Below, one piece after another: positions 9,536 through 34,425 of a DNA stretch of 39,533 bases. The translations under genes and the position numbers were made by a program. The notes under the pieces are model-generated. The model saw only the letters and a list, made by a program, of their open reading frames with translations, did not search any database and was not told the DNA's origin. Within the stretch, counting starts at the first letter, position 1, and each line of letters begins with the position of its first letter. This DNA comes from an uncultured Gemmiger sp. GTDB taxonomy: Bacteria; Bacillota; Clostridia; Oscillospirales; Ruminococcaceae. The stretch lies in assembly GCA_944388245.1 (NCBI GenBank), contig CALXIA010000018.1, forward strand, positions 1 to 39,533, read 5' to 3'.

Positions 9536-9734
9536 GCCAATCTGGGGGACCAGTCCCCCAGACCCCCATTTATCGGGCCGGAATACTCCGGCCCTCGGGA
9601 GAAAATAAAACAGGCCCGCGTGGATGGTTTTCGGTCCGCGCGGGCCTGTGTGTATATTTTTCCCCATGGCCGAAGAGATTCGGCCATAGGTTCCGGGGGG
9701 TATGGGGGGATAGGTTCTATCCCCCCATATTGGC
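9536..9734. repeat. family A palindromic element, copy 1 (full)
   Basis: Reference copy, 199 bases. Modules in order: hairpin TCTGGGGGAC/GTCCCCCAGA at 9541-9562; hairpin GGGCCGGA/TCCGGCCC at 9575-9594; terminator hairpin AGGCCCGCG.../...CGCGGGCCT at 9612-9647 with A-rich left and T-rich right flanks; hairpin ATGGCCGA/TCGGCCAT at 9666-9687; hairpin TATGGGGGGATA/TATCCCCCCATA at 9701-9729, ending ATTGGC. The right half mirrors the left half. It begins at the base after the jag stop and probably terminates the rpmH-jag transcript. Confidence 0.88.
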
Positions 9735-9828
9735 GTTCCCGGCGCGCGGGAGCGGATTCCCGGGCGGCGGGGTGGCGGCGGGACAGGATTTCCGGTAGAA
9801 TGGAGGCAGAAGAAAGGAGGGGCCGAGG

Positions 9829-10959
9829 ATGGAACAAGGATTCAGCGACCGGCTCAAGCGATACCGGAAAGAGAAGAACCTGACCCAGCAGGAACTGGCG
9901 GACGCGCTGGGGGTCAGCAACAAGAGCGTGTCCCGGTGGGAATCGGAGGGCGGATACCCGGACGTGCCGCTGCTGGTGCCGCTGGCCCGGGCGCTGGGGG
10001 TCACGGTGGACGACCTGCTGAACGAGGAAAAACCGGTGCGCACCCTCACCCGGGCCGACTGGCAGAGCCTGCTCTCCTTCGCCTTCGCGCTGGGCGGCGG
10101 CCTGCTGTTCTATCTGCTCAACCAGTTCGCGCCGCTGCCGGTATCCTACGCGGTCTACCTGGGCTGCCTGGCCTACGGGGCCTGGCTCCAGCGATACTAC
10201 GCCCGGCACAGCCGCTGGTTCTGGCTGGGCGCCGCCGCCATGAACCTGGCGGTGAACCTGTCGGCCGCCGCGCAGCTGTCCGCCGCCGCGTCCACCCTGT
10301 ATACCCTGGCGCTGTACACCTCGCCGCTGAACGGCACCGCCGATCTCGCCGGCCTGCTCAGCGCCCGCACCCTGATGGTGTCGGTGACGCTGACGCTGGC
10401 GGCGCTGGCGGTCACCGCCGTCACCCTGTGGCAGGTCCGGGCCCGGTTCTCGGACCGGGCCGCCCCGCCGCGGCCCGCCCTTGTCTGGCGGATGCCCCGG
10501 GGCCGGGCGCTGCTGCCGCTGGCCGCTTTCGGGGCGGTGGCCGGGTTCTGGGCCGTCTATACCCGCACCGACCTGCCCGCCTGGTGCTGGCAGTACCAGG
10601 GCCCGATGCTGGCGGGATTGCTGGCGGTGCTGGCGCTGGGCCTGGGCGTGACCCTGCGCCGCCGCCGGGCCGTGGCCTGGCTGGCCCTGGCCCTGACGCT
10701 GGCCGCCTGGCCGCTGCGGCAGCTATATTGGGTGCGCAGCGTGAATTCCGGCAAACTCTACGGCTGGAGCGAGAATATCCTCATGGACTATTACCTGCCT
10801 TTGTGGCAGCCCTCCCCCGCCCTGTTCGCCCTGCTGGCCGCACTCGCCGTCCTCTGGCTGCTGGCCGCCGGGCTGGAAACGGATGGGCCAATCTGGGGGA
10901 CCAATCCCCCAGCCCCCCATTTGTCGGGCCGGAATACTCCGGCCCTCGGGAGAAAATAA
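9829..10959 (+). CDS. XRE-family regulator with polytopic membrane domain
   Basis: 376 residues. Residues 5-60 form a helix-turn-helix of the XRE/Cro type (LTQQELADALGVSNKSVSRWE). About seven to eight hydrophobic segments follow, from residue 78 to 350, so this is a membrane-tethered DNA-binding protein; its ligand is unknown. AAAGGAGG precedes the ATG. The last 22 codons before the stop, from GPIWGTNPP onward, are encoded by family A copy 2 (from 10887), so the natural end was probably near LLAAGLE. It is flanked on both sides by family A elements, which makes it an isolated unit. Confidence 0.85.
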   Translation: MEQGFSDRLKRYRKEKNLTQQELADALGVSNKSVSRWESEGGYPDVPLLVPLARALGVTVDDLLNEEKPVRTLTRADWQSLLSFAFALGGGLLFYLLNQFAPLPVSYAVYLGCLAYGAWLQRYYARHSRWFWLGAAAMNLAVNLSAAAQLSAAASTLYTLALYTSPLNGTADLAGLLSARTLMVSVTLTLAALAVTAVTLWQVRARFSDRAAPPRPALVWRMPRGRALLPLAAFGAVAGFWAVYTRTDLPAWCWQYQGPMLAGLLAVLALGLGVTLRRRRAVAWLALALTLAAWPLRQLYWVRSVNSGKLYGWSENILMDYYLPLWQPSPALFALLAALAVLWLLAAGLETDGPIWGTNPPAPHLSGRNTPALGRK

Positions 10960-11080
10960 AACAGGCCCGCGTGGATGGTTTTCGGTCCGCGCGGGCCTTT
11001 GTGTATATTTTTCCCCATGGCCGAAGAGATTCGGCCATGATTTCAGGGGTCTGGGGGAACGTTGTTCCCCCAGATCGGCC
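10887..11080. repeat. family A palindromic element, copy 2 (full)
   Basis: Same module order as copy 1. The left half and terminator are nearly identical to copy 1, but the right hairpin is different: TCTGGGGGAAC/GTTCCCCCAGA instead of TATGGGGGGATA/TATCCCCCCATA, with pairing kept. The left hairpin is imperfect (GGGGGA/TCCCCC). It starts inside the upstream reading frame and supplies its stop codon at 10957-10959. It lies between the XRE gene and the mgtE promoter. Confidence 0.88.
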
Positions 11081-11116
11081 ATTATGTAAAAATCCGGCAA
11101 AATATGGCGGCGCGGA

Positions 11117-11146
11117 TTGACTTTTCCGGGGCCGGGGCGCTATACT
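11117..11146 (+). promoter_or_regulatory. mgtE promoter
   Basis: TTGACT at 11117-11122 and TATACT at 11141-11146, 18 bases apart. It predicts a leader of about 185 bases before mgtE. Confidence 0.75.
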
Positions 11147-11152
11147 GAAACA

Positions 11153-11336
11153 GGACGCGCCCGGCAGGGCGCGGTCCCGAATTTTATCGAAAGAAGGCAG
11201 GTGGAACACCGCATGGACCCCAGTGGAAAACCACGAAGTAGGCGCGCCGGCGTCCGGCGGCGACCGCCTGTAACGGCGGTCGGGTAAGGGCGCCCGGGGC
11301 GGCCTGCGCAAGATTTTGTGTCAGGAGGAACGCCCA
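11153..11336 (+). promoter_or_regulatory. structured mgtE leader, no known riboswitch recognised
   Basis: The predicted leader can form several hairpins: GCGCCC/GGGCGC at its 5' end, GGTG-gaa-CACC at 11200-11210, GTGG-aaaa-CCAC at 11223-11234, GCCGG-cgt-CCGGC at 11247-11259 and GACCGCC/GGCGGTC at 11262-11281, with GGCGC/GCGCC enclosing the last two. It also contains a small reading frame. I do not see the conserved GGTGAGGCTCC core of the M-box magnesium riboswitch. Confidence 0.45.
11213..11287 (+). CDS. possible leader peptide upstream of mgtE
   Basis: A 24-codon frame starts at ATG 11213, after a GAAGGCAGGTGG purine stretch, and ends at TAA 11285-11287, 49 bases before mgtE. It begins M-D-P, has further prolines at residues 7, 18 and 19 and contains RRRPP. 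This composition recalls the proline- and charge-rich MgtL peptide that senses magnesium ahead of Salmonella mgtA, but the peptides are not homologous by eye. It may be a chance frame in a structured leader. Confidence 0.25.
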   Translation: MDPSGKPRSRRAGVRRRPPVTAVG

Positions 11337-12689
11337 ATGGAAATCGAAGAGATCGTCCGGCAGCTTTTGAACCTGCTGGAGACCAAGCAATACCAGCAGC
11401 TGCGTCAGGTCACCGAGGACATGCAGCCCGCCGACCTGGCGGAAGCGCTGGAAAAGATGGACCAGCAGAACCGGCTGCTGGTGTTCCGTCTTATGAAAAA
11501 GGACGTGGCCGCGGAGGCCTTCGCCTGGATGGGCCAGGAGGCCCGGGGCGAGATGATCGAGAACTTCAGCGACGCGGAACTCACCGCCGCGCTGGAGGAG
11601 ATGGCCCTGGACGACGCGGCCGACATCCTGGAAGAGATGCCCGCCAGCGTGGTCAAGCGGGTGCTGGCCCGGTCCAGCAAAAAGACCCGGGAGAGTCTGA
11701 ACCGGCTGCTCAACTACCCGGCGGACTCCGCCGGCAGCATCATGACCCCGGAATACATCCGGCTGCGCAAGGAGATGACGGTGGCCCAGGCGCTGGACGT
11801 GATCCGGCGGGAGGGGGAAAACTCCGAGACCGTCTACACCCTCTATGTCACCGAGCGCAACAAGCTGCTGGGGGTGGTCAGCGCCCGGGACCTGCTGCTG
11901 GCCGGCCCGGACCAGACCATGGAAGAGCTGATGGACGACAACGTCATCAGCGTGCAGGTCACCGACGACAAGGAAGAGGTGGCCAAGGAACTGAACCGGT
12001 ACGGCTTCATCGCCATGCCGGTGGTGGACAGCGAAGGGATGCTGGTGGGCATCGTCACGGTGGACGACGCCACCGACGTTTTGATCGAAGAGGCCACCGA
12101 GGACTTTGAACAGATGGCCGCCATGCAGCCCAACGAGGACGGCTACTTTGCCACCAGCGTCTGGAAACAGGCCTGCAACCGTCTGCCCTGGCTGCTGGTG
12201 CTGATGCTGTCGGCCACCTTCACCGGCATGATCCTCACCCACTACGAGGAAGCCTTCGCCGTCATGCCGCTGCTGGTCAGCTTCATCCCCATGCTCATGG
12301 ACACCGGCGGCAACTGCGGCAACCAGTCCAGCACCCTGATGATCCGCGGCATGGCCCTGGGCGAGATCGAACCACGGGACGTGCTGCGTGTGGTCTGGAA
12401 AGAATTCCGGGTGGCGCTGATCGTGGGCGTGGTGCTGGCCATCGTGAACGGCGCCCGCATCTGGATCATGTACGGGGACCCGAAGATCGCCATCCTCATC
12501 GCCCTCACCCTGCTGGCGGCGGTGGTCATCGCCAAACTCATCGGCTGTATGCTGCCGCTGGGTGTGCAGAAGGTGGGCCTGGACCCGGCCATCATCGCCT
12601 CCCCCTTCATCACCACCCTGGTGGACGCCTGCGTCATCACCGTCTATTTCAGCATCGCGGTCCAGATGTTCGCCACCCTGCGCGGCTGA
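11337..12689 (+). CDS. mgtE: magnesium transporter MgtE
   Basis: Magnesium channel/transporter of the MgtE (SLC41-like) family. 450 residues: the cytoplasmic helical N domain at 1-125, two CBS domains at about 130-250 (IMTPEYIRLRKEMTVAQAL, then MPVVDSEGMLVGIVTVDDA), and a C-terminal membrane domain of five helices with the conserved pore segment PMLMDTGGNCGNQSS at about 318-332. The start MEIEEI at 11337 has an ideal CAGGAGGAA site. It is monocistronic: own promoter, structured leader, and a strong terminator at 12708. Confidence 0.96.
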   Translation: MEIEEIVRQLLNLLETKQYQQLRQVTEDMQPADLAEALEKMDQQNRLLVFRLMKKDVAAEAFAWMGQEARGEMIENFSDAELTAALEEMALDDAADILEEMPASVVKRVLARSSKKTRESLNRLLNYPADSAGSIMTPEYIRLRKEMTVAQALDVIRREGENSETVYTLYVTERNKLLGVVSARDLLLAGPDQTMEELMDDNVISVQVTDDKEEVAKELNRYGFIAMPVVDSEGMLVGIVTVDDATDVLIEEATEDFEQMAAMQPNEDGYFATSVWKQACNRLPWLLVLMLSATFTGMILTHYEEAFAVMPLLVSFIPMLMDTGGNCGNQSSTLMIRGMALGEIEPRDVLRVVWKEFRVALIVGVVLAIVNGARIWIMYGDPKIAILIALTLLAAVVIAKLIGCMLPLGVQKVGLDPAIIASPFITTLVDACVITVYFSIAVQMFATLRG

Positions 12690-12707
12690 ACCCCTGCCAT
12701 ATACCCC

Positions 12708-12738
12708 GGAGACCGGCAAGGTGCCGGTCTCCTTTTTT
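12708..12738 (+). terminator. mgtE terminator
   Basis: GGAGACCGGC/GCCGGTCTCC, a 10-base stem with a short loop, followed by TTTTTT. It lies 19 bases after the mgtE stop. Confidence 0.9.
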
Positions 12739-12790
12739 GTATCCAGTTGCTTTTCCCCGGATTCTGCCGTATTATAAAGGGTACGGATCA

Positions 12791-12840
12791 GATCCATCCC
12801 CCATAAACGGGGGCATGGGGGACTGGTCCCCCATATTGGC
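12791..12840. repeat. family A element, copy 3 (right-arm fragment)
   Basis: Contains a CCCCCAT...GGGGG stem followed by the end hairpin ATGGGGGACtgGTCCCCCAT and the terminal ATATTGGC of family A. The GGCCGG hairpin and terminator modules are missing. It lies between the mgtE terminator and rsmI, inside the expected rsmI 5' leader. Confidence 0.75.
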
Positions 12841-12865
12841 ATCTGGAAAAAGGAGGAACCAGCCC

Positions 12866-13717
12866 ATGGCCGGAACCCTGTACATCGTGGCGACCCCGCT
12901 GGGCAACCTGCAGGACCTGACCCCGCGGGCGGCGGCCACCTTCGGCAGCGTGGACTTCATCGCCGCCGAGGACACCCGGGTCACCCTGAAACTGCTGAAC
13001 CATCTGGGGCTGAAAAAGCCGCTGGTCAGCTACTACGAGCACAACCTGAAGGAGCGGGGCCAGCAGATCCTGGCCCGGATCGCCGCCGGGGAGAACTGCG
13101 CCTTGTGCAGCGACGCGGGCATGCCCGCCATCTCCGACCCCGGTGAGATCATCGTGCGGGACGCTCTGGCCGCCGGCATCCGGGTGGTGCCGGTGCCCGC
13201 CGCGGCCGCCTGCGTCACCGCGCTGGCGGTGAGCGGCCTGCCCACCGGCCGGTTCGTGTTCGAGGGCTTTCTGCCCACCAACCGCCGCCAGAAAGCCGAG
13301 CGGATCGCGGAATTGCAGGGGGAAAAACGCACCATACTCTTCTATGAAGCCCCCCACAAACTCCCCGGCACCCTGCGGGATCTGTGCGCCGCCTTCGGGC
13401 CGGACCGGCCGCTGACCATCGCCCGGGAACTGACCAAGCTGCACGAGGAGATCCGCCCCACCACCCTGGGCGAGGCCGCCGCCTACTACGCCGAGAACAC
13501 CCCCCGGGGCGAGTTCGTGCTGGTGATGGCCGGCGCCCCCGACGAGCCCCAGGCCGCCCCGCCCACCGCCCAGGACGGCGCGGCGCTGGCCCGCCGCCTC
13601 ATGGAGGAGGAGGGCCTCTCCCCCGCCGCCGCCGCCAAGGAGGCCGCGGGCCGCACCGGCGCCAACCGCCGGGCCATCTACAAAGCCCTGCTCAGCGAGG
13701 AGGAAACCGAAGCATGA
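12866..13717 (+). CDS. rsmI: 16S rRNA 2'-O-methyltransferase RsmI
   Basis: SAM-dependent methyltransferase that modifies C1402 of 16S rRNA. 283 residues of the tetrapyrrole-methylase fold: the N-terminus GTLYIVATPLGNLQDLTPRA, the motif FIAAEDTRVTLKLLNHL, CALCSDAGMPAISDPG and ILFYEAPHKL are all typical. I use the ATG at 12866, preceded by AAGGAGG; an in-frame extension upstream would run through a family A fragment. It overlaps the next gene by ATGA. In Bacillus this gene (yabC) sits with yabB and yazA, whose relatives are elsewhere in this window. Confidence 0.95.
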   Translation: MAGTLYIVATPLGNLQDLTPRAAATFGSVDFIAAEDTRVTLKLLNHLGLKKPLVSYYEHNLKERGQQILARIAAGENCALCSDAGMPAISDPGEIIVRDALAAGIRVVPVPAAAACVTALAVSGLPTGRFVFEGFLPTNRRQKAERIAELQGEKRTILFYEAPHKLPGTLRDLCAAFGPDRPLTIARELTKLHEEIRPTTLGEAAAYYAENTPRGEFVLVMAGAPDEPQAAPPTAQDGAALARRLMEEEGLSPAAAAKEAAGRTGANRRAIYKALLSEEETEA

Positions 13718-14208
13718 CCAAACTTATCGTCGCGTCGGACAGCCACGGCAGCGCCGTCACCCTGCAGGGGGTGCTGGACAAGGAGCGCGACGCCGACGCC
13801 CTGCTGTTCCTGGGGGACGGCGTGCGGGACCTGGACACCGCCTGCGGGCCCTTTCCCGGCCTGCGGGTCTACGCGGTGCGCGGCAACTGCGACCTGGCCG
13901 CGCTGGAACCCCCCGAGGGCGTCGCCCCCTTTGACGGGGTCAACGTGCTGTATACCCACGGCCACCTGTACGGGGTCAAATCCGGGCTGGAACGGCTCTG
14001 GTACGCCGCCCGGGAACGGGGCGCCCAGCTGGCCCTGTTCGGCCATACCCACATCCCTCTGTGCGAGGAATCGGACGGGGTCACCCTCTTCAACCCGGGC
14101 AGCGTGGGCCGGCCCTGGCGGGGGCACGCCACCTACGGCGTGATCCTGCTGGACAAGGGCAGGATCGTGGAGTGCCGGCACGAAAAAGCCCCGGCCCTCT
14201 GGGAATGA
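13714..14208 (+). CDS. YfcE/MJ0936-type metallophosphodiesterase
   Basis: 164-residue calcineurin-like phosphoesterase of the small YfcE/YsnB type. Metal ligands are visible: SDSHG at residues 9-13, GDGVRD, GNCD, and the C-terminal HGH and GHTHIP motifs, followed by NPGSVGRP. The natural substrate is unknown; relatives cleave artificial phosphodiesters. It is translationally coupled on both sides, with ATGA overlaps with rsmI and birA. Confidence 0.9.
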   Translation: MTKLIVASDSHGSAVTLQGVLDKERDADALLFLGDGVRDLDTACGPFPGLRVYAVRGNCDLAALEPPEGVAPFDGVNVLYTHGHLYGVKSGLERLWYAARERGAQLALFGHTHIPLCEESDGVTLFNPGSVGRPWRGHATYGVILLDKGRIVECRHEKAPALWE

Positions 14209-14936
14209 GCGCCCCGCTGGTATACCTGCCCCGGGTGGACAGCACCAACACCTGGGCGCGGGACCACATCGCGGAACTGGCCCCCTTCGGCGCGGTGTAC
14301 ACCACCTGCCAGACCGCCGGCCGCGGCCGGCTGGGCCGGGCCTGGCTGGGGGTGGAGGACGGCGGCCAGCTGTGCGTCACGGTGGCCTTTGCCCCGCCCC
14401 TGGCCGACCCCTCCGGCCTGCCGCTGCTCACCGGGCTGGTGCTGGCAAAGCGGCTGGAAGCGCTGTACGGGGTGTCGTGCCAGGTCAAATGGCCCAACGA
14501 CATCCTGCTGAACGGCAAAAAACTCAGCGGCACCCTCTGCGAGGGGGTGCCCGGCGGCTGGCTGTCCGGCACCGGCATCAACCTGTGCCAGCCCCAGAGC
14601 TACTTTGACCGGCTGGAACTGCCCCACGGGATCAGCCTGCGCACCGCCGGGGTCCCGGTGGACGAGCAAAACGACCCGGCCCGCCTGGCCCGGGACATCC
14701 TGGACAACGGCTTCGGCCCGGTGCGGGAACGCTTTGCCGCCCAGGGCATCGCCCCCTTTCTGGCGGAGTACCGGGCCCGCTGCGTGAACCTGGGCCGCAA
14801 GATCTGGTTCGAGGGCGGCGAGGGGGTGGCCCGGGACATCGACCAGGCCGGCCGCCTGGTGGTGGACACCCCCGACGGCCGCCGCCTGGTCTTTACCGGG
14901 GAGGTCAGCGTCAAGGGCATCTACGGCCGGGTGTGA
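14205..14936 (+). CDS. birA: biotin-[acetyl-CoA-carboxylase] ligase, monofunctional
   Basis: Attaches biotin to carboxylase carrier proteins through biotinyl-AMP. 243 residues with the BirA catalytic motifs GRGRLGRAW at about 40-48, KWPNDILLNGKKLSG at about 95-109 and GTGINL. The N-terminal DNA-binding HTH of regulatory BirA is absent, so it is a ligase only. The start ATG overlaps the previous stop (ATGA). It ends 9 bases before an inverted TTTTCCACA pair. Confidence 0.93.
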   Translation: MSAPLVYLPRVDSTNTWARDHIAELAPFGAVYTTCQTAGRGRLGRAWLGVEDGGQLCVTVAFAPPLADPSGLPLLTGLVLAKRLEALYGVSCQVKWPNDILLNGKKLSGTLCEGVPGGWLSGTGINLCQPQSYFDRLELPHGISLRTAGVPVDEQNDPARLARDILDNGFGPVRERFAAQGIAPFLAEYRARCVNLGRKIWFEGGEGVARDIDQAGRLVVDTPDGRRLVFTGEVSVKGIYGRV

Positions 14937-14945
14937 GCGGCGGAA

Positions 14946-14981
14946 GGTTTTCCACAAAATCGCCCCCGGCGGTGGAAAACC
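14946..14981. promoter_or_regulatory. inverted box pair TTTTCCACA-N14-GGTGGAAAA after birA
   Basis: GGTTTTCCAC and GTGGAAAACC form a perfect 10-base inverted repeat; the 9-mers (14948-14956, 14971-14979) are 14 bases apart. This is the same geometry as the pairs at 6246-6277 and 7302-7333. It lies about 45 bases upstream of the tRNA promoter. Confidence 0.55.
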
Positions 14982-15023
14982 CGCCCGCCCTGGGAAAAAA
15001 TTGCCCCGAAAACAAAAAAATCG

Positions 15024-15052
15024 TTGACACAGCCCGAAAACTGTGCTATCAT
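15024..15052 (+). promoter_or_regulatory. tRNA-Arg promoter
   Basis: TTGACA at 15024-15029 and TATCAT at 15047-15052 with a 17-base spacer, about 20 bases before the mature tRNA. Confidence 0.82.
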
Positions 15053-15071
15053 ATCTCTTGCACTCAAAGAT

Positions 15072-15148
15072 GCGCTGGTAGCTCAGTTGGATAGAGTGTC
15101 TGGCTACGAACCAGAAGGTCAGGGGTTCGAATCCCTTCCAGCGCACCA
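15072..15148 (+). tRNA. tRNA-Arg (anticodon ACG)
   Basis: A complete 77-base cloverleaf. The acceptor stem is GCGCTGG/CCAGCGC, followed by discriminator A and an encoded CCA. The D arm contains AGTTGGATAGAG, the anticodon stem is TCTGG/CCAGA with loop CTACGAA, and the T arm contains GGTTCGAATCC. Anticodon ACG, presumably deaminated to ICG, reads CGN arginine codons. It has its own promoter and terminator, so it is a single-gene unit. Confidence 0.97.
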
Positions 15149-15172
15149 GTTTGCATGGGCTTCGGCCCGCGG

Positions 15173-15206
15173 AAAAGCCCCGGTCATCCGACCGGGGCTT
15201 TTCGCG
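15173..15206 (+). terminator. tRNA-Arg terminator
   Basis: AAAAGCCCCGGT/ACCGGGGCTTTT, a 12-base stem beginning 24 bases after the tRNA. Confidence 0.85.
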
Positions 15207-15225
15207 TCTTCTGACCCCGGCTCTG

Positions 15226-15251
15226 CGCGCCGCGCCCCGGCGCGTTTTTTT
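15226..15251 (+). terminator. second terminator upstream of ilvE
   Basis: CGCGCC/GGCGCG stem followed by seven T residues. With the previous hairpin it forms a tandem terminator insulating the aminotransferase gene. Confidence 0.6.
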
Positions 15252-15286
15252 GTCGCACTTTTACCAAAAAAATCTCGGATCCCCTC

Positions 15287-15315
15287 TTGTTCTTGCGGTC
15301 GCGGTTTACTATAAT
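15287..15315 (+). promoter_or_regulatory. ilvE promoter
   Basis: TTGTTC at 15287-15292, 17-base spacer, perfect TATAAT at 15310-15315, about 70 bases before the start codon. Confidence 0.78.
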
Positions 15316-18060: not shown

Positions 18061-18274
18061 GCCAATATGGGGGAGCCAATATGGGGGACCAGTCCCCCAT
18101 ACCCCCATTTAGGGGCCGGAATACTCCGGCCCCGGGATTGATACAAAAATAAGGCCCGCGCGGACCAAAACCGTTCGCGCGGGCCTTGCCTTTTTACTCT
18201 TCCCTATGGGCGGAGGATTCCGCCCATGTTTTTTGGGGGGGCTGGGGGGATATAGTATATCCCCCCAGATCGGC
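18061..18274. repeat. family A palindromic element, copy 4 (full, duplicated head)
   Basis: The left end GCCAATATGGGGGA is repeated twice, at 18061 and 18075. Modules: TATGGGGGAC/GTCCCCCATA; GGGGCCGGA/TCCGGCCCC; terminator AGGCCCGCGCG/CGCGCGGGCCT; ATGGGCGGA/TCCGCCCAT; CTGGGGGGATATA/TATATCCCCCCAG. Several stems differ from copies 1 and 2 with pairing intact. It lies between convergent transcripts and runs into the 3' end of the trmN6-like gene. Confidence 0.88.
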
Positions 18275-22101: not shown

Positions 22102-22140
22102 GCCAATATGGGGGGAATCAACGATTCCCCCCAGATCGGC
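22102..22140. repeat. family A element, copy 5 (single end hairpin)
   Basis: GCCAATATGGGGGGAATC aac GATTCCCCCCAGATCGGC. One perfect end hairpin carrying both terminal motifs, 9 bases after the amidase stop. The same GAATC-aac-GATTC stem is the left hairpin of copy 9. Confidence 0.82.
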
Positions 22141-24520: not shown

Positions 24521-24592
24521 AATACTTTCTCCCGAGGGCCGAGCATTCGGCCCGACAAAGGGGGCATGGGGGTCTATGACCCCCATATTGGC
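24521..24592. repeat. family A element, copy 6 (right half)
   Basis: CTTTCTCCCGAGGGCCGAGCATTCGGCCC followed by ATGGGGGTC tat GACCCCCAT and ATTGGC: the right half, or the left half inverted, of family A without the terminator hairpin. The stem GGGGGTC/GACCCCC differs from all other copies with pairing kept. It lies between holB and ricT, in the same transcriptional direction, and lacks the terminator. Confidence 0.8.
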
Positions 24593-27488: not shown

Positions 27489-27704
27489 GCCAATCTGGGG
27501 GAGTTAAGCCGATCTGGGGGACCAGTCCCCCAGCCCCCCATTTATCGGGCCGAATCCTCGGCCCTCGGGATATTGCATCAATAAAGGCCCGCGCAGACCG
27601 AAAACCGTCCGCGCGGGCCTTACCTTCTATAATACCCCATGGCCGAAGAGATTCGGCCATGTGTTCCGGGGGGTATGGGGGGATAGGTTCTATCCCCCCA
27701 TATT
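27489..27704. repeat. family A palindromic element, copy 8 (full, duplicated head)
   Basis: Starts GCCAATCTGGGGGA, followed by a second head GCCGATCTGGGGGA at 27508. Modules: TCTGGGGGAC/GTCCCCCAG; GGGCCGA/TCGGCCC; terminator AGGCCCGCGC/GCGCGGGCCT; ATGGCCGA/TCGGCCAT; TATGGGGGGATA/TATCCCCCCATA. The GGGCCGA stem is one pair shorter than in copy 1, and the loss affects both sides. It ends 8 bases before the stop codon of the FAD dehydrogenase and can terminate its leftward transcript. Confidence 0.88.
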
Positions 27705-27712
27705 TTCCCCGC

Positions 27713-29107
27713 TTACCGCACGCCCATGAGTTTGCGGGCCATGAGCACCCCCATGACGCTGGCCATCATGAGGCCGCGGGTCCAGCCGGAGGAATCGCCC
27801 AGGCAATAGAGATTGGCGATGCTGGTATGGAGATCGGCGTCCATGTTGACCCGGTTGGAATAGAACTTCAGTTCCGGGCTGTAGAGCAGGGTCTCGGTGC
27901 TGGCGAAACCCGGCACCACCTGGTCCACCATCTGGATAAACCCGATGATGTTGGTCATGGCCCGGTAGGGCATGGCGGCGGTGATATCGCCGGCCACCGC
28001 GTCCTTGAGGGTGGGCCGCACGTTGCTGAAAGCCAGCTCCTTCTGCCAGGTGCGCTTGCCGTCCAGAATATCCCCGAACCGCTGCACCAGGATATGCCCG
28101 GCGCCCAGCATGTTGGTCACCTCACCGATCTTCTGGGCATAGGCGATGGGCTGGTTGAAGGGCTCGGTGAAATTGTGGCTGCACAGGATGGCCACGTTGG
28201 TGTTGGGGCTCTTCTTCTCCTTGTAGCTGTGTCCGTTCACCACCGCCAGGTCGTTGTCGTAGTTCTCCTGGCTCACAAACCCGCCCGGGTTCTGGCAGAA
28301 GGTGCGCACCTTGTTCTTGAACGGCCGCGGATACCCGATCAGCTTGCTCTCATAGAGCACCTTGTTCACCTGCTCCATCACCTCGTTGCGGCACTCCACC
28401 CGCACGCCGATATCCACCGTGCCGGGCTTGTGGTCGATGTGATGTTCCGCGCACAGGGCCTCCAGCCAGTCCGCGCCGCGCCGCCCGGTGGCCACCACGA
28501 TGGTGCGGCCCGCGATCTCGGTCTCCCTGCCGCCCTCGGCCACGATCACGCCGGTGCAGGCCCCGTCCTTGAGCACCAGGTTGCGGCACTCCACCCCGAA
28601 CCGGATCTCCACCCCGTGCTCCAGCAGATACTGCTGCAGCGCGTAGTACAGCTGCTGGGCCTTCTCGGTGCCCAGATGCCGCACCGGGCAATCCACCAGC
28701 TTCAGCCCCGCCTGGATCGCCCGCTTGCGGATATCCTTCACCTTGTCGCTGTGATCCACGCCCTCCACGTGCTCGTCCGCGCCGAACTCCAGGTAAATGC
28801 TGTCGGTATAATCGATCAGCTCCTGGGCGTAAAACTCCCCGATCAGGCTGGGCAGATCCCCGCCCACCTCGTGGTTCAGGCTCAGTTTCCCGTCCGAAAA
28901 CGCCCCCGCCCCCGAAAACCCGGTGGTGATGTGGCAGTAGGGCTTGCAGTTCATGCAGCGGCCGGTCTCCGCCTTGGGACAATGGCGCTTTTCCACCGGC
29001 CGCCCTTTCTCCAGCAGCAGGATCTTGTGACGGCTGCCCTTGCGCAGCAGTTCCAGCGCGGTAAAGATGCCGGCCGGGCCGGCGCCAACGATCACAACGT
29101 CATACAT
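27713..29107 (-). CDS. FAD-dependent dehydrogenase (COG2509-type)
   Basis: 464 residues. The N-terminal Rossmann FAD-binding motif is VVIVGAGPAGIFTALEL at residues 4-20. The segment CMNCKPYCHITTGFSGAGAFSDGKL at about 51-75, the second dinucleotide site VVATGRRGADWL and the C-terminal YCLGDSSGWTRGLMMASVMG place it in the group of uncharacterised FAD-dependent dehydrogenases related to geranylgeranyl reductase-like and GidA-like proteins. The cysteine pair near residue 51 may be redox active or metal binding. Its substrate is unknown. It has its own promoter and a leader with a terminator-like hairpin. Confidence 0.88.
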   Translation of the reverse strand: MYDVVIVGAGPAGIFTALELLRKGSRHKILLLEKGRPVEKRHCPKAETGRCMNCKPYCHITTGFSGAGAFSDGKLSLNHEVGGDLPSLIGEFYAQELIDYTDSIYLEFGADEHVEGVDHSDKVKDIRKRAIQAGLKLVDCPVRHLGTEKAQQLYYALQQYLLEHGVEIRFGVECRNLVLKDGACTGVIVAEGGRETEIAGRTIVVATGRRGADWLEALCAEHHIDHKPGTVDIGVRVECRNEVMEQVNKVLYESKLIGYPRPFKNKVRTFCQNPGGFVSQENYDNDLAVVNGHSYKEKKSPNTNVAILCSHNFTEPFNQPIAYAQKIGEVTNMLGAGHILVQRFGDILDGKRTWQKELAFSNVRPTLKDAVAGDITAAMPYRAMTNIIGFIQMVDQVVPGFASTETLLYSPELKFYSNRVNMDADLHTSIANLYCLGDSSGWTRGLMMASVMGVLMARKLMGVR

Positions 29108-29220
29108 AGGTGCATATCCTCCTGCAAAATCTGGTTTTACGCAGCAAAAAACCAGCTGCCGCGTAAGGCTCGCCCGAACCCGGACGGCGGCCCGGCGGCG
29201 GGCAGCTGGTTACAAAGCCA
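29108..29220 (-). promoter_or_regulatory. attenuator-like leader of the FAD dehydrogenase gene
   Basis: Reading leftward from the promoter, AACCAGCTGCC (29213-29203) pairs with GGCAGCTGGTT (29159-29149), immediately followed by TTTTT: an intrinsic terminator upstream of the start codon. An alternative pairing, TTACGC...GCAGC with GCTGCGTAA just after the T-run, would break the terminator stem. This is the arrangement of a terminator/antiterminator switch. No known riboswitch or T-box core was recognised. Confidence 0.5.
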
Positions 29221-29226
29221 TAGGAG

Positions 29227-29255
29227 TTTATAGCACACACAGGCGCAAAAGTCAA
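29227..29255 (-). promoter_or_regulatory. promoter of the FAD dehydrogenase gene
   Basis: TTGACT (29255-29250), 17-base spacer, TATAAA (29232-29227), reading leftward; about 120 bases before the start codon. Confidence 0.8.
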
Positions 29256-29319
29256 GTGTTTTTGTGCACAAAGGCAAAAATTCACAGAATAAGTACGACT
29301 TTTGCGGTTTTCCACAGCA

Positions 29320-30258
29320 TCACAGCTGCGGGCCGGCCCCCTGCAAGGGACGGATCACGCCGGCCTCCCGGCTGGCGCGCAGCCCGGCCATGACGGTGGG
29401 CACCATGCCCAGCAGCAAAAACAGGTACAGCATCACCAAATTGCCCCAGTAGACCGAGCCCTCGATGGCCTCCATCTCCAGCAGCGCCCCCACCGAGCGG
29501 AACCCAGTGAACACGTCGGTGCCCAGTTCCCGGGCGATGACGATGGCCCAGTCCAGCCGGTCGGCCACGTAGGTCATGAGCAGCATGATGACCACGCTGA
29601 TGGCGGCCCCCTTGCCGGAGAGCCGGCCGCCCAGCATCTCGTAGCCCTTGATGGCGCAGACCCCCATCACCAGGCCGGAGATCGCCGCCACATACCCCAG
29701 TTGGCTGAGCAGAATGATGCAGACCGCCCCCGCCAGGCTGCCGATCAGCGCGCCCACCGCGCCGGCCACCGGGTTTTCGGGCTTGGCGGGCTGGGTAGCC
29801 TGCTGCTGCTGCATCCCGGCCAGGCAGCTGGGGCACAGATGCAGATACCGCCCGCCCGCAAAGCATCCCTGGGTCGCGCCCGGCGCGCCGCAGGCCTGGC
29901 AGATGGTTTCAAATCCCGCCTGCTGCAAAAACTGGGTGAAATCCTCCAGCAGGGTGTTCAGCGCGTCCGGCTTGATGCCGTTGCGCAGGCTCAGGGTCAC
30001 CAGCCGGCCCTGCTGGGTCAGACCGTTGCAGTCCTTGCGCCCTTTGCGGAACTGCTTGCTCTCGGCCCCGGAAAGCGGCCCGGCCGCCCGCTGCACCGAC
30101 ACGGTGCACACCATCGCACCCGGCGCCGAGGCCTTGGGCGGGTACACCAGCAGATCGAACCCGTTCCGGCTGCCGAACAGCGCCGGGTATTCCGCGTCCA
30201 GCGTCAGCCCGGCGGTCTCCACAAAGCCGCTGTAATACTTTTGCCAACGATTTGCCAT
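29320..30258 (-). CDS. zinc-ribbon-containing membrane protein of unknown function
   Basis: 312 residues. The N-terminal 140 residues are soluble (NGFDLLVYPPKASAPG, GRLVTLSLRNGIKPDALNTLL). A zinc-ribbon-like pair follows, CQACG at about 144 and CPSCL at about 167, then four hydrophobic segments at about 190-295, including AVGALIGSLAGAVCIILLSQLG and LVMLYLFLLLGMVPTVMAG. The region between the last two carries ELGTDVFTGF. The similar motif ELGTDLFTGYHF occurs in the neighbouring ABC membrane protein, which may be chance or a shared fold. I do not recognise the family. The ATG at 30258 follows AGAGAGGG. Confidence 0.7.
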   Translation of the reverse strand: MANRWQKYYSGFVETAGLTLDAEYPALFGSRNGFDLLVYPPKASAPGAMVCTVSVQRAAGPLSGAESKQFRKGRKDCNGLTQQGRLVTLSLRNGIKPDALNTLLEDFTQFLQQAGFETICQACGAPGATQGCFAGGRYLHLCPSCLAGMQQQQATQPAKPENPVAGAVGALIGSLAGAVCIILLSQLGYVAAISGLVMGVCAIKGYEMLGGRLSGKGAAISVVIMLLMTYVADRLDWAIVIARELGTDVFTGFRSVGALLEMEAIEGSVYWGNLVMLYLFLLLGMVPTVMAGLRASREAGVIRPLQGAGPQL

Positions 30259-30361
30259 ACACAATCCCTCTCTTGTCATAGTTCTTCGGGCCGGCAGCCC
30301 GATGTTACCAGTATAGCATATTTTGACAGGAACTGTGTAAAATTTGCAAAATATTTGGGTT

Positions 30362-31072
30362 TCAGCCTCCGCCGCCGGCGGCGGGCAGCCGCAGCAGCCA
30401 CCAGGCGCACAGCCCCAGGTAGACCAGCGCCGCCGCCGTGCCCACAAGCCCCAGCCCCAGGGGATTGGCCGCCATAAAGGGGCCAAAGATCCCGCCGAAC
30501 AGCCGGGCCAGCTGCTCATCAAACAGCACCACCGCCATCCAGACGCACCACAGCGTCCAGCCGGCCTTGCCGCCAAACCGCAGCAGCAGCGCGCCCATGC
30601 CGTAGCAGAGCACCAGCGGCCCGGCCAGCAGCCCGGCCAGCAGCGCCGGGCTCATCAGGCTCCAGATGGAGAACACCAGCTCCATCCCCCGGGGCTGCCA
30701 CAGCAGACGGTAGATCCCCTCGCTCACCCCGGCCAGCGCCAGGGCCAGCCCGGTGGGGGCAAGGGTGTGCAGCAGGCAGACGGCCAGCTCCCCCGCCAGC
30801 ATCCCCCGGCGGGTGGCCCCCATCCGCAGCCCCCGGCGGAAGTCGATCAAGAACCGGGCTATATTGATAAAGGTCATCAGCACCGCCGTGAAGATCACCG
30901 CCAGCAGCCCGGCGAAGCCCACCGTGCCGCCGGGATCGCCCCGGTAAAAATGGTATCCGGTGAACAGATCGGTGCCCAGTTCGGCCAGCAGCCAGACCCC
31001 GGCCACCGCGGCCAGCTCCAGCCACAGATCCCGCAGGCTGATGGCCACGCAGGCTTTGATGGTTCGCAGCAT
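30362..31072 (-). CDS. ABC-transporter-associated membrane protein 2
   Basis: 236 residues with about six hydrophobic segments (WLELAAVAGVWLLAELG, GFAGLLAVIFTAVLMTFI, LALALAGV, ALLAGLLAGPLVLCYGMG and others) and no soluble domain. It is the last gene of the gntR-ATPase-membrane-membrane operon, 16 bases after the previous gene with an AAGGAGG site, so it is probably a permease half. The start MLRTIKAC was chosen for this ribosome site. Substrate unknown. Confidence 0.78.
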   Translation of the reverse strand: MLRTIKACVAISLRDLWLELAAVAGVWLLAELGTDLFTGYHFYRGDPGGTVGFAGLLAVIFTAVLMTFINIARFLIDFRRGLRMGATRRGMLAGELAVCLLHTLAPTGLALALAGVSEGIYRLLWQPRGMELVFSIWSLMSPALLAGLLAGPLVLCYGMGALLLRFGGKAGWTLWCVWMAVVLFDEQLARLFGGIFGPFMAANPLGLGLVGTAAALVYLGLCAWWLLRLPAAGGGG

Positions 31073-31088
31073 CAAAACTCCCTCCTTG

Positions 31089-31718
31089 TCACGCATTTTT
31101 CGGGGCCAGCCGCATCGCCAGCCGGTGGCTGGCCACAAACAGCGCCACCACCGCCACGGCGCAGACCACCTGTACCGCCATAAAGCCGGGGTCGGGCAGT
31201 ATCCCGGTCTCGTGCATCGCGCCCAGGATCAGTCCGCCCAGTACCACTACAGAACCGCCCCCGGCCACCAGACCCCGGCCCAGCCGGCCTTCCAGCAGCC
31301 CAGCCGGCAGCGCCAGCTGCCCGGCCAGGGCCAGGAACAGCCCGTTGAACACCGCTCCGCTGGAAAAAATCGTCTTCATCCCGAAGGCCTGCCCCGCCCG
31401 GAACATCCCCAGGCTTATCGCCAGCAGCACCGCCCAGCACAGCCAGGTCACGATCTGCATCCCGGCCCAGGCGGCCCGGCGGGTGCAGCCCATGGCCACC
31501 ATCAGCGGCAGCATGGGCATGGCCATCGACGCCCCGCTGATCAGAAAGATAAACTCCGCCAGCAGCGGAAAGGCAATCAGATAGTTGGCCATAAAGTTTT
31601 CCCGGCTGTTGGTGCCCCACAGGGCGGCGGAGCCCAGCGTGACCAGGGCAAACAGCACCACCACGCCCAGCAGCATGGCCGCCCACCGCAGCGAAAACTG
31701 AACTGCCCGCGCCGTCAT
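31089..31718 (-). CDS. ABC-transporter-associated membrane protein 1
   Basis: 209 residues, about six membrane helices. An early helix (AAMLLGVVVLFALVTLG) is followed by GTNSRENFMANYLIAFPLLAEFIFLISGASMAMPMLPLMVAMGCTRR-type sequence in which GCTRRAAW is typical of the cytoplasmic turn in ABC-2-like permeases. Its ATG overlaps the ATPase stop as ATGA. With the other membrane protein it would form a heterodimeric permease for the ATPase encoded upstream. Confidence 0.78.
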   Translation of the reverse strand: MTARAVQFSLRWAAMLLGVVVLFALVTLGSAALWGTNSRENFMANYLIAFPLLAEFIFLISGASMAMPMLPLMVAMGCTRRAAWAGMQIVTWLCWAVLLAISLGMFRAGQAFGMKTIFSSGAVFNGLFLALAGQLALPAGLLEGRLGRGLVAGGGSVVVLGGLILGAMHETGILPDPGFMAVQVVCAVAVVALFVASHRLAMRLAPKNA

Positions 31719-32623
31719 ACCGCGCCGCCCCCTTTCCCCTCGTGGCCGCACAGGGTCACGAACACCTTTTGCAGGGTCAGGGGTTCCACGTCCACCTCAC
31801 CGCCGGCACGCAGCGCCCCGGGCCCGCCGGGCAGCCGCACCACGCACTGTTTCTGGCGGCCCAGCCGCTCGCAGGTCAGCACGGTGTGCCCGGCGCAGAC
31901 CGCGTCCACCGCTTCCTCAGCGCCGGTCACCGCCGCAAACTGGCCCACCAGCTCGTCGGTCTCGCCCATTTCCAGGATGTTGCCCTCGTCCAGCAGGATG
32001 ACCTCCTCAAACACCGAGGCGGCCTCCTCAATGATGTGGGTGCTGATGACGAAGGTGCGGCCGGTCTCGGCGTAGTCCTCCAGCAGCAACTTGTAGAAGT
32101 CCTCCCGGGCCACCACGTCCAGCCCCGCCACCGGCTCGTCCAGCAGGGTGATGGGGGCCCGGCTGGCCAGGGCGATCACGATGGTCACCATGCTCAGCAT
32201 CCCCTTGCTCAGCTTGCAGATCTTTTTGCGCTCGTCCAGCCCGAACCGCTCCACCAGCCGGGCGGCGTAGGCCTTGTCCCAGTGGGGCAGAAACAGCGCC
32301 GCCGCCTCCAGGTAGTCCCGCACCTTCAGGTTGTTGGGCCCGTTGCCCAGGGTGGTGCCGATCTCCCGGGAAAAGCACAGGTTCGCCAGGGCGGCCGCGT
32401 TCTCCCACACCGGCGCACCGCCGCAGGTCACGATGCCCTCGCTCACCGCCAGCTGACCGGTCAGGCAGCTGAGCAGGGTGGTCTTGCCCGCCCCGTTGCG
32501 CCCCACCAGCCCGTAGATGCAGCCCGGCCGCAGGGTCAGATCAATGCCGTGCAGCACCTCCTGTTTGCCGTACCGCAGCCGCAGGCCCTGGGCCCGCAGT
32601 TCAGGATAGTTGTTCGGATTCAT
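31715..32623 (-). CDS. ABC transporter ATP-binding protein
   Basis: 302 residues. Walker A GLVGRNGAGKTTLL at about 38-51, the Q-loop, a signature reduced to KLSKGMLSMV at about 138, Walker B PITLLDEPVAGLD at about 155-167 and the H-loop FVISTHIIEE are all present. The C-terminal 80 residues (from AVTGAEEAVDAV) form an accessory domain as in YtrB-type ATPases. It lies two bases after a YtrA-type GntR regulator gene, the arrangement of Bacillus ytrABCDEF, which responds to cell-wall antibiotics. The transported compound is unknown. Confidence 0.92.
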   Translation of the reverse strand: MNPNNYPELRAQGLRLRYGKQEVLHGIDLTLRPGCIYGLVGRNGAGKTTLLSCLTGQLAVSEGIVTCGGAPVWENAAALANLCFSREIGTTLGNGPNNLKVRDYLEAAALFLPHWDKAYAARLVERFGLDERKKICKLSKGMLSMVTIVIALASRAPITLLDEPVAGLDVVAREDFYKLLLEDYAETGRTFVISTHIIEEAASVFEEVILLDEGNILEMGETDELVGQFAAVTGAEEAVDAVCAGHTVLTCERLGRQKQCVVRLPGGPGALRAGGEVDVEPLTLQKVFVTLCGHEGKGGGAV

Positions 32624-32625
32624 GG

Positions 32626-33003
32626 TCAGTCCTCCTTGTGTTCGGCGGCCCGGCGCACCATCTGCGCCAACTCTTCCGCCCCGATGCCCAGGCTGGCGGC
32701 TTCTTTCGCCAGCGCGATCACATAGTCCTGGTAAAAGGCTGCCTTGCGCCGGGCGGCGATGGCCGCCGCCGCCCCCGGGGCCACGAACATCCCGATGCCC
32801 CGCCGCTTGTACAGAACCCCCTGGTCCACCAGCAGGTTGATGCCCTTGGCCGCTGTGGCCGGGTTGATCTTGTACGCCCGGGCCAGCTCGTTGGTGCTGG
32901 GCACCTGCTCCTCGGCGGGATAGATCCCCCTCAGGATGCCGTCCTCCAGCATCTGGGCCACCTGCAGGTAGAGGGCGCTCTGCTCGTTGAAGGGTTGCAG
33001 CAA
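32626..33003 (-). CDS. GntR-family (YtrA subfamily) transcriptional regulator
   Basis: 125 residues: winged HTH at about 10-75 (ALYLQVAQMLEDGILRGIYPAEEQVPSTNELARAYKINPATAAKGI), then the short helical YtrA dimerisation part. I choose the TTG at 33003 because a perfect AAGGAGGTGAG lies 6 bases upstream and because the promoter -10 lies at 33073-33068; a longer frame with an ATG at 33072 would start inside the promoter. It probably represses its own operon with the ABC genes, which follow within two bases. Confidence 0.88.
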   Translation of the reverse strand: MLQPFNEQSALYLQVAQMLEDGILRGIYPAEEQVPSTNELARAYKINPATAAKGINLLVDQGVLYKRRGIGMFVAPGAAAAIAARRKAAFYQDYVIALAKEAASLGIGAEELAQMVRRAAEHKED

Positions 33004-33067
33004 CCCTCTCACCTCCTTGTCTGTCCGTTCCACCCATGGGTTAAGTGGTTCATTACTTGTGTAACTA

Positions 33068-33096
33068 ACCATAGCACCTGCGGGGCGGATTGTCAA
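33068..33096 (-). promoter_or_regulatory. promoter of the gntR-ABC operon
   Basis: Perfect TTGACA (33096-33091), 17-base spacer, TATGGT (33073-33068), reading leftward. GTTACACAAGTAAT just after the -10 contains a short inverted repeat (TTAC/GTAA) that could be the operator. Confidence 0.8.
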
Positions 33097-33123
33097 GGGG
33101 GATGGGGGCAAAAAAATCCCGTC

Positions 33124-33152
33124 TTGTCAAAAAGGCGGGATGCGGGTATCAT
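33124..33152 (+). promoter_or_regulatory. lacI-family gene promoter
   Basis: TTGTCA at 33124-33129 and TATCAT at 33147-33152 with a 17-base spacer; about 45 bases before the start codon. It is divergent from the gntR promoter, with 28 bases between their -35 boxes. Confidence 0.6.
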
Positions 33153-33196
33153 GGAGACAGGAAGAGAGAACGTTTGCCCAAAAGGAGGAAGGACCC

Positions 33197-34222
33197 ATGG
33201 CGACCCTGAAGGACGTGGCGAAGATGGCGGGGGTATCGGTGAGCACGGTGTCCCGGATCATCAACGGGAAGGGGGAGAAATGCGCCGGGGCGGCGGTGCA
33301 CAAGCGGGTGTGGGAGGCGGTGCGCGCGAGCGGGTATGTGCCGAATCAGGAGGCCAAGCGGCTGAAGGAGGGCGGCGGCGCGCAGCGGGAGCCGATCACG
33401 GTGAGCTGCCTGTTCGCGCGGGCGGAGGATTACCGGGAGGACAGTTTTTTCAACGCGCTGGCGGCCTGTGTGGAGGAGGAGGTGCTGCGGCAGGGGTGCC
33501 GGCTGGGGCCCCGGTACAGCCACAAGGACGCGCAGCGGCTGGGCGGCAGCGAGGAGTTTGCGGCAGGCCGGCGGGACGGGCTGGTGGTGCTGGGAAAGAG
33601 CGGGCCGAATAGCGAGGGGCTGATCGGCCGGTTCAAAAAGCGGGTGGTGCACATCACCCTGAATCAGATGGAGATACGGCGGGATCACATCGTGTGCGAC
33701 GGGTGGCACGCGGCGGAGATGGCGCTGCAATACCTGTATGAGGCGGGGCATCGGGTGATCGGGTATGTGGGCGAGACCGAAAAGGAGATCCGGTACCGGG
33801 GGTATCGGGCGTTCATGCTGGATGTGGGGCTGCATCCGGGGCCGATCTTTCCGGCGGCGATGACCCCGGCGGGGGGCCAGCGGGCGGTGGAGCGGATCCT
33901 GGCGGCCCGTACCCTGCCCACGGCGCTGTTCTGCGCCAACGACGCCACCGCCCAGGGGGTGCTGCGGGGGTTGGCCGAGGCGGGGGTGCCGGTGCCGGGG
34001 CGGATCAGCGTCATCAGCATCGACAATATCCCCGAGGCGGAACAGACAAAACCCCTGCTCACCACCGTCAAGGTGCCCTTCCGGGATCTGGGCAGCTTCG
34101 CCGTCAAGACCCTGCTGGACCGCATCGATCACGGGCATACCGTGCCGCTGAATATCTTCATGCCCTGCGAACTGGTCGTCCGCCAGAGCGTCGCCGCGCC
34201 CCGGGAGGGCGCGCAGGGCTGA
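33197..34222 (+). CDS. LacI-family transcriptional regulator
   Basis: 341 residues. The N-terminal HTH is ATLKDVAKMAGVSVSTVSRIINGKG, with hinge VWEAVRASGYVPNQEAKRLK; the rest is a periplasmic-binding-like sensor (CDGWHAAEMALQYLYEAGHRVIGYVG, ALFCANDATAQGVLRGLAEAGVPVP, VISIDNIPEAEQTKP). It most likely senses a sugar, but no sugar transport or catabolic gene is beside it, so its targets are elsewhere. AAAGGAGGAAGG precedes the ATG at 33197. Four bases after the stop family A copy 9 begins. Confidence 0.93.
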   Translation: MATLKDVAKMAGVSVSTVSRIINGKGEKCAGAAVHKRVWEAVRASGYVPNQEAKRLKEGGGAQREPITVSCLFARAEDYREDSFFNALAACVEEEVLRQGCRLGPRYSHKDAQRLGGSEEFAAGRRDGLVVLGKSGPNSEGLIGRFKKRVVHITLNQMEIRRDHIVCDGWHAAEMALQYLYEAGHRVIGYVGETEKEIRYRGYRAFMLDVGLHPGPIFPAAMTPAGGQRAVERILAARTLPTALFCANDATAQGVLRGLAEAGVPVPGRISVISIDNIPEAEQTKPLLTTVKVPFRDLGSFAVKTLLDRIDHGHTVPLNIFMPCELVVRQSVAAPREGAQG

Positions 34223-34226
34223 TAAA

Positions 34227-34425
34227 GCCAATATGGGGGGAATCAACGATTCCCCCCATACCCCCCGGAACACATGGCCGGAATACTCCGGCCATAGGGA
34301 ATTGGATACACAGATAAGGCCGGTGCGCGATTCGCTTGCGCACCGGCCTTGTTTTTGTTTTTCCCAGAGGGCCGAGGATTCGGCCCGACAGATGGGGGTC
34401 TGGGGGACTGGTCCCCCAGATCGGC
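34227..34425. repeat. family A palindromic element, copy 9 (full)
   Basis: Most diverged full copy. Left hairpin TATGGGGGGAATC/GATTCCCCCCATA; ATGGCCGGA/TCCGGCCAT; terminator AGGCCGGTGCGC/GCGCACCGGCCT, whose stem differs from all others at several paired positions; GGGCCGA/TCGGCCC; right hairpin TCTGGGGGAC/GTCCCCCAGA. It lies between the convergent lacI-family and MATE genes, touching both stop codons within a few bases. Confidence 0.88.

Follow-up and report, generated by a model that had tools for sequence, protein, structure and literature searches.

Five full and several partial copies of a dispersed composite palindrome, here called Family A, occur in the window, the complete 39,533-nucleotide contig of an uncultured Gemmiger sp. 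that was analyzed here (contig C18 of genome G000). Each full copy is a cassette in which a central terminator-like hairpin is enclosed by two inward-facing arms of two hairpins each, and its outer edges mostly lie at stop codons. Between species, the sites of these cassettes are conserved and their arms are not, as arms have been swapped and whole cassettes inverted in place. With moderate confidence, we read a full copy as a bidirectional gene-end cassette, which would be mostly inherited at its site and reshaped at the DNA level by template switching and by conversion between copies. As a class, the cassettes are best read as a family akin to repetitive extragenic palindromic (REP) sequences and bacterial interspersed mosaic elements (BIMEs), and one that is apparently independent of REP-associated tyrosine transposases (RAYTs).

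Structure and placement of the cassettes

Four Gemmiger genomes were compared, that of the window (G000) and three others (G001, G002, and G003), from species with 88% to 96% protein identity. An arm profile run on 1.535 Mb of sequence fetched from these draft genomes found 240 double-hairpin arms, and the cassette family was present in all four. One copy used as a blastn query recovered 49 pieces in G000, which excludes chance. A covariance model of the arm (cut-off E ≤ 0.01) gave at least 66 matches in G000, with the outer hairpin at 22102 counted on both strands, and at least 97 in one sister species; both are lower bounds, as 150 of 1,372 and 150 of 2,080 first-look candidates were scored, respectively. 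Copies thus occur elsewhere in the genome and in relatives, in agreement with an initial annotation made from the window alone, which had proposed a dispersed family with a bidirectional terminator-like hairpin at its center. The five full copies and the partial ones it had listed were recovered with refined boundaries (Table 1); for copies 3 and 4, the starts given earlier, 18061 and 27489, had taken in an additional copy of the left end.

From the outside inward, an arm consists of the end sequence GC(C/T)(A/G)AT(A/C)T (also written GCCRATMT, and inverted at the two cassette ends), an outer hairpin with a variable core and, in most cases, five or six G-C pairs, a run of C, a short spacer, and an inner hairpin with a loop of mostly four bases. 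The outer cores recur: ACCAGT was found 35 times, ACAACGT 32, ATAG-AAC-CTAT 24, AGAT-AAC-ATCT 22, AATC-AAC-GATT 21, and ATAT-AAC-ATAT 11 times, along with rarer ones. All 82 neighboring pairs of arm hits less than 150 nt apart point inward. A laxer cut gave 73 inward pairs, one ++ pair, and one -- pair, and both exceptions were two pieces of a single split arm. The gap between arms measured 58 to 72 nt in 67 of these 73 pairs and 50 to 80 nt in 73 of the 82. The element had been described as a near-palindrome, which holds for its architecture but not for its sequence, as identity between the arms of a cassette is only about 75% (over 36 full pairs). A reduced form with three hairpins (outer-inner-outer) at G000:C5:47997 is kept in G001 and G002.

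The center is a GC-rich hairpin with an A-rich left (5′) and a T-rich right (3′) side; in 58 of 73 cassettes, at least four of nine bases fit on both sides, giving a GC stem with a T-tract on both strands. Bidirectional intrinsic terminators lie between convergent genes and have T-rich tails on both strands. The cassette center shares these tails, but differs in having on either side a double-hairpin arm that is common to the whole family. Judged by this sequence, the hairpin would halt transcription from both directions. Seven stretches taken from the five copies in the window were folded as RNA and had z-scores of −5.2 to −10.1, with the arm hairpins formed every time, and a single fold of the full-length RNA included additional pairing between the two arms.

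Genes were predicted with a home-made caller, whose predicted starts are approximate. Sixty-six of the 73 pairs were scored for their neighbors, after exclusion of 4 with an atypical length and 3 located at the edge of a region: 39 lay between convergent and 27 between tandem genes. None lay between divergent genes, which account for 150 of the 1,179 gene pairs overall and which hold a solo arm in 2 of these 150. The distance from outer edge to stop codon had a median of 4 nt over 105 edges, 83 of which fell between −8 and +15 nt, so that the placement at stop codons noticed in the initial annotation applies to the family at large. A second mode, with 13 of the 105 edges at 114 to 133 nt, arises because these arms are split by another repeat, Family B. 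With edges at stop codons on both sides, a cassette often makes up the entire space between two stop codons.

Family B is a second GC-rich palindromic family of about 100 to 120 bp, found in the window at 3875-4580 and 39230-39533. It also lies within Family A arms (L010, L035, L037, and L046), either in a hairpin loop or between outer hairpin and C-run. At L090:9657-9716 (G001:C26:19657-19716), two unlike outer hairpins surround a Family B-like GC hairpin, an alternative center that replaces the inner hairpins and the terminator.

Conserved sites, swapped arms, and inverted cassettes

Orthology was assigned by genes and, independently, by DNA flanks; a clustering of flanks that had chained 88 copies together via Family B sequence was replaced. 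Junctions were compared pairwise, so that a single site may enter several comparisons. An arm pair faced an arm pair in 49 comparisons, a solo arm in 15, and no arm in 4, while solo arms faced solo arms in 24 and no arm in 15. Although the sites are conserved, the arms are not: the outer variant was unlike in 26 of 36 orthologous arms, and in 78% of these 36 cases, an arm was closer to a paralogous arm than to its orthologue.

Cassettes have also been inverted in place, at three sites or more. Among 48 comparisons, 8 favored inversion by more than 5 points, 19 leaned direct, and 21 were unclear (the random 99th percentile was 85.5% identity). The cassette at G001:C28:16119 matched its G002 counterpart at 97.5% inverted and 79.6% direct. 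For G001:C6:33956, the values were 91.6% inverted and 77.5% direct against G002, and 86.4% and 76.4% against G000. As G000 and G002 agree here (88.0% direct), the flip is placed in G001. G001:C49:58482 matched G002 at 86.8% inverted and 75.0% direct; G002 and G003 agree (84.8% direct), and G000 leans weakly to the G001 orientation (80.6 versus 77.1), so that no one lineage is favored for the flip and more than one flip is possible. Of 24 G001-G002 sites compared by DNA flanks, 9 were in direct and 3 in inverted orientation, 11 fitted neither, and 1 was empty. Another likely flip, the fourth, was seen at G001:C14:35615 against G002 (57% direct, 77% inverted), where a repeat has been inserted. 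Inversion of a spacer through template switching (PMC8604942) fits these in-place flips.

Reduced, empty, and newly gained sites were seen as well. Reduction to one hairpin, with cassettes in relatives, was found at window 22102 and, in degenerate form, on contig C52 of G003; a scan for further one-hairpin remnants returned the window copy alone, the degenerate one having been seen by eye. The sole truly empty site is in G002, opposite G001:C49:38986, and has no obvious target duplication. The copy at window 10887 is a gain, 95% identical over 167 nt to its neighbor at 9536; at this site, the other three genomes have a different terminator-like hairpin and an apparent convergent gene (by eye). 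The left arm of the gained copy provides the last codons and the stop of the upstream open reading frame (window 10887-10959), where the gene in the other three genomes has its own stop (by eye).

Table 1. Positions of Family A features in the window; cores are those of the outer hairpins.
Feature	Position	Strand	Remarks
Left arm, copy 1	9536-9598	+	Outer core ACCAGT; first base directly after the jag (8501-9535) stop codon
Central terminator-like hairpin, copy 1	9610-9649	.	
Right arm, copy 1	9663-9734	-	Outer core ATAG-AAC-CTAT
Left arm, copy 2	10887-10949	+	In frame as C-terminus of open reading frame 9829-10959; no arms at this site in three sister genomes
Central terminator-like hairpin, copy 2	10963-10998	.	
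Right arm, copy 2	11014-11079	-	Outer core AAC-AAC-GTT
Partial arm: outer hairpin and altered spacer	12797-12840	-	
Extra copy of 14-nt left end, ahead of copy 3	18061-18074	+	
Left arm, copy 3	18075-18136	+	ACCAGT
Central terminator-like hairpin, copy 3	18150-18188	.	
Right arm, copy 3	18203-18274	-	ATATACTATAT
Lone outer hairpin with both ends	22102-22140	.	Full cassette at the same site in two sister genomes
Solo arm	24532-24592	-	Outer core TCATAGA
Terminator-like hairpin without arms	25530-25572		
Extra partial left end, ahead of copy 4	27489-27507	+	
Left arm, copy 4	27508-27568	+	ACCAGT
Central terminator-like hairpin, copy 4	27585-27622	.	
Right arm, copy 4	27636-27707	-	ATAG-AAC-CTAT; adjoins stop codon of gene 27713-29107
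Left arm, copy 5	34227-34298	+	AATC-AAC-GATT; 4 nt past stop codon of 33140-34222
Central terminator-like hairpin, copy 5	34313-34352	.	
Right arm, copy 5	34364-34425	-	ACCAGT; 2 nt short of stop codon of 34428-35783
Degenerate end adjoining another repeat family	39196		

Perfect stems, unlike ends, and competing explanations

In an alignment of 123 arms, 98.4% of cells were paired and 12 of 18 pairs were altered on both sides. The covariation score was 0.396. Shuffled controls scored 0.116, with none of 500 reaching the observed value, and slid ones scored 0.090 at most; further pair types in these arms numbered 27, which was not above the 25.7 of shuffles (153 of 500 as high). The two-sided stem changes noticed in the initial annotation are supported. 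Its interpretation, that pairing is kept while the sequence drifts, is not: outer stems occur mostly as a few recurring variants that are swapped as blocks at orthologous sites, and intermediates are nearly absent. When the eight pairs next to the loop were compared by one algorithm for all hairpins, Watson-Crick pairs made up 99.4% in outer stems (n = 203) and 99.5% in inner stems (n = 232), versus 83.2% in terminators (n = 73). The shares of G-T were 0.12%, 0%, and 6.5%, and those of A-C 0.49%, 0.27%, and 7.0%, respectively. Each arm is expected to be transcribed in one polarity, mainly from the adjacent gene, so that selection on RNA alone should tolerate G-U. Its near absence from the arm stems points to a process at the DNA level that would keep them perfect, for which template switching in hairpins is a named candidate (PMC8794818).

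The outermost 12 to 14 nt of both cassette ends are alike. The same outer core was found on both sides in 0 of 56 cassettes, with 6.0 expected (SD, standard deviation, 2.1; P about 0.001), and a shared run of at least 19 nt between the two arms in 0 of 55, versus 17% of between-cassette pairs. Inner hairpins did not differ significantly from expectation, either as whole hairpins (alike in 0 of 81, 1.5 expected) or as 7-nt stems (11 alike, 13.1 expected). It is likely, though not proven, that the two ends of a cassette are always unlike. This contradicts the suggestion that template switching homogenizes the arms, as randomly paired arms resemble each other more than the two arms of a cassette do; template switching fits the perfect stems within each hairpin, but not an equalizing of the two arms. 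A simple cause for the lack of equal-ended cassettes may be deletion: the same palindromic outer hairpin on both sides would also be a direct repeat, and its loss would leave a single hairpin, like that at 22102. Dropout of identical ends during assembly is an unlikely cause, because assembly k-mers are usually longer than the roughly 40 nt that such ends would share.

In the explanation that we favor, the shared intrinsic terminator would serve the genes on either side, and the arm directly after a stop codon would become the 3′ untranslated region of the mRNA. There, by analogy, its two hairpins may protect the 3′ end, contact the terminating ribosome, or both, with a possible effect on translation or on the stability of the mRNA. 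Template switching would act within each hairpin to keep its stem perfect. The whole cassette would be flipped by recombination or template switching between its short inverted ends, single arms would be replaced through conversion between copies, and deletion would reduce a cassette to one hairpin. Cassettes with identical ends would be lost, leaving the ends different, and the family would be independent of RAYTs in the genomes seen.

Several observations weigh against this explanation. Only 4 of the 8 comparisons favoring inversion (3 sites) exceed the random 99th percentile. Of 90 pairwise site comparisons by DNA flanks, 67 were too diverged for an orientation to be assigned, and the others comprised 15 direct, 4 inverted, and 4 empty or reduced. 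With one cassette per orthologous site, identical outer cores numbered 0 of 28 versus 2.9 expected (P = 0.043); no single genome was significant (P = 0.058, 0.17, 0.13, and 0.71), and the per-genome values for shared runs of at least 19 nt were 0.055, 0.037, 0.046, and 0.33. Template switching should act on the terminators too, yet their stems are imperfect, so that the perfect stems of the arms must owe something to selection or recent copying as well. The family is also not purely vertical, since a copy has reached a new site at window 10887. Lastly, all four genomes are draft assemblies.

Dispersal, modularity, the inverted end sequence, and the one clear gain at window 10887 would also suit a miniature mobile element moved by a transposase encoded elsewhere, similar to REP doublets forming hairpins (REPINs) or to miniature inverted-repeat transposable elements (MITEs), whose sites would be old insertions beside terminators. 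Of 179 arms, 22 have another end motif of the same orientation no more than 30 nt beyond their outer edge, versus 6 of 179 for the opposite orientation and 4.1% of random 30-mers. This points the same way, but some of these motifs coincide with stop-codon context, and such tandem ends are ambiguous because GCTGAT can belong to that context. We consider this origin unlikely, as site occupancy is conserved (49 comparisons of pair with pair, versus 4 of pair with none), the one truly empty site lacks an obvious target duplication, and the end sequences offer no explanation for exact landing at stop codons. A search that covered the Y1 transposase family (PF01797, RAYT-type) found no member in G002, in G003, or, in line with the initial annotation, in G000, whose assembly is 75% complete; one of these three genomes is 99% complete. 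G001 does have Y1 transposases, and the three loci fetched from it held no arm.

Dedicated recombination acting on folded DNA is another possibility, and in our view a quite unlikely one. The arms would then be recombination sites of a system that recognizes perfectly folded DNA hairpins, with a small alphabet of ends, a requirement for unlike ends, and continual flipping and re-pairing of gene-end cassettes around the replication origin. Perfect DNA-type stems without tolerance of G-T, a small set of interchangeable ends, in-place inversion, and ends that always differ would all be accommodated, but no enzyme was identified in a search limited to Y1 transposases, and template switching and conversion account for the same facts without one. 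Ordinary selection on RNA, by which 3′-end hairpins and terminators would be kept through compensatory point mutation and would have converged independently at each gene end, agrees with the strong covariation and with the position at stop codons. However, discrete outer variants recur, paralogues are closer than orthologues, whole cassettes are inverted, and the arms have almost no G-U even though the terminators of the same cassettes have 6.5% G-T. Independent origins cannot account for these observations, and we consider this reading very improbable.

Relation to known elements and distribution

The initial annotation could name no similar element, but REPs, BIMEs, and REPINs are close analogues. 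Like Family A, REPs and BIMEs are short extragenic palindromes that are dispersed, have compensatory stems, and frequently form composite structures (PMC3733652, PMC12306157); the counts of at least 66 and 97 arm hits and the absence of cassettes between divergent genes (0 of 66) conform to this. Of the 4,072 REPs predicted in Escherichia coli, 446 are no more than 15 nt away from a stop codon (PMC12306157), and ribosome stalling has been reported for REPs at this distance (work cited in PMC12306157). REP superfamilies are defined by an unpaired GTAG or CGTC tag at one end (PMC3733652), neither of which was found in the 123-arm alignment. Family A differs further in its four hairpins around a terminator, in the 83 of 105 ends that lie −8 to +15 nt from a stop codon, in the lack of a detected cognate RAYT in three of the four arm-bearing genomes, and in the exchange of arms and inversion of cassettes at conserved sites. 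REPINs likewise consist of two inverted palindromic units around a spacer, with compensatory changes (PMC3116915), an arrangement matched by the 82 of 82 inward pairs. Their ends, however, are highly conserved 16-mers tied to RAYTs (PMC3116915), whereas those of the cassettes always appear unlike (no common outer core in 56, no shared run of 19 nt or more in 55), and the spacer of the cassette is a terminator-like hairpin. Template-switch mutation of inverted repeats shares the perfect stems, the instantaneous compensatory change, and the inversion of the spacer (PMC8794818, PMC8604942), but it is a mutation process rather than an element and, contrary to the arms observed within cassettes, it predicts equal ones.

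An exact scan for one outer hairpin in the GTDB species collection, which possibly leaves out close relatives of G000, gave matches confined to three Gemmiger assemblies (17 stretches), and blastn with one copy had no match in 27 other genomes of the family and order. The arm model found weak matches in 12 of 293 other genomes of the family (best E, 8e-8) and none at E ≤ 1e-4 in 290 other genomes of the class; these large searches used stricter filters, with 17 candidates scored per genome, and can therefore miss weak relatives of the arm. As strong matches were confined to the four Gemmiger genomes, an element common to the family Ruminococcaceae was rejected. An exact pattern of hairpin and C-tail occurred in 3 of 194 genomes of the family outside the genus, some of which have hairpins in series as well. 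In stretches from other genera of the family (L154, L155, L186, L188, and L192), such series are rare and combine an outer hairpin of similar G-run/C-run type, a CCCCC tail, and a second hairpin, and a wider, looser class of palindromes may therefore reach beyond Gemmiger. A known Rfam RNA was also rejected: only a tRNA in the window scored above its gathering threshold, and the cassette copies gave one sub-threshold match (E, 0.38), in one copy. The literature searches, several of them judged by listings alone, returned no paper on this cassette family in Gemmiger or Faecalibacterium.

The window encodes recF, dnaN, dnaA, yidC, and jag, and therefore represents the chromosomal replication-origin region. 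Genes such as ychF, walK, and mnmG are often near the origin in Firmicutes. Under the arm covariance model, 42 of the 66 hits in G000 fell on three contigs, C18 (the window, with dnaA), C3, and C4, at 35 (with one hairpin counted twice), 19, and 13 arms per 100 kb, compared with a genome mean of 3.35. C3 carries ychF and a histidine kinase with WalK as its best match (below the cut-off of that model), and C4 carries mnmG. These three contigs with origin-type genes thus have 4 to 11 times the mean arm density, and an enrichment of cassettes near the replication origin is suggested. C3 probably adjoins the window in the chromosome, as the G002 orthologue of the cassette at window 34227 lies partly at the end of the C3-like contig C12 and partly at the end of the window-like contig C21. 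Within window 1032-9535, recF, dnaN, and dnaA lie on one strand and yidC and jag on the other, and TTTTCCACA-type motifs occur near 7290-7334, within the origin region.

In this gut genus, many genes would owe their 3′ ends to the cassettes, which stay at the same gene ends in four species while turnover of their arms outpaces that of the genes. The in-place inversions are a natural record, in a bacterium, of template switching or of recombination between short inverted repeats, and the contrast of 99.5% versus 83% Watson-Crick pairs within one cassette would set DNA-level stem repair apart from RNA-level selection. REP-like repeats are usually explained by RAYTs; of the four species that share this REP-like family, however, three yielded no Y1 transposase.

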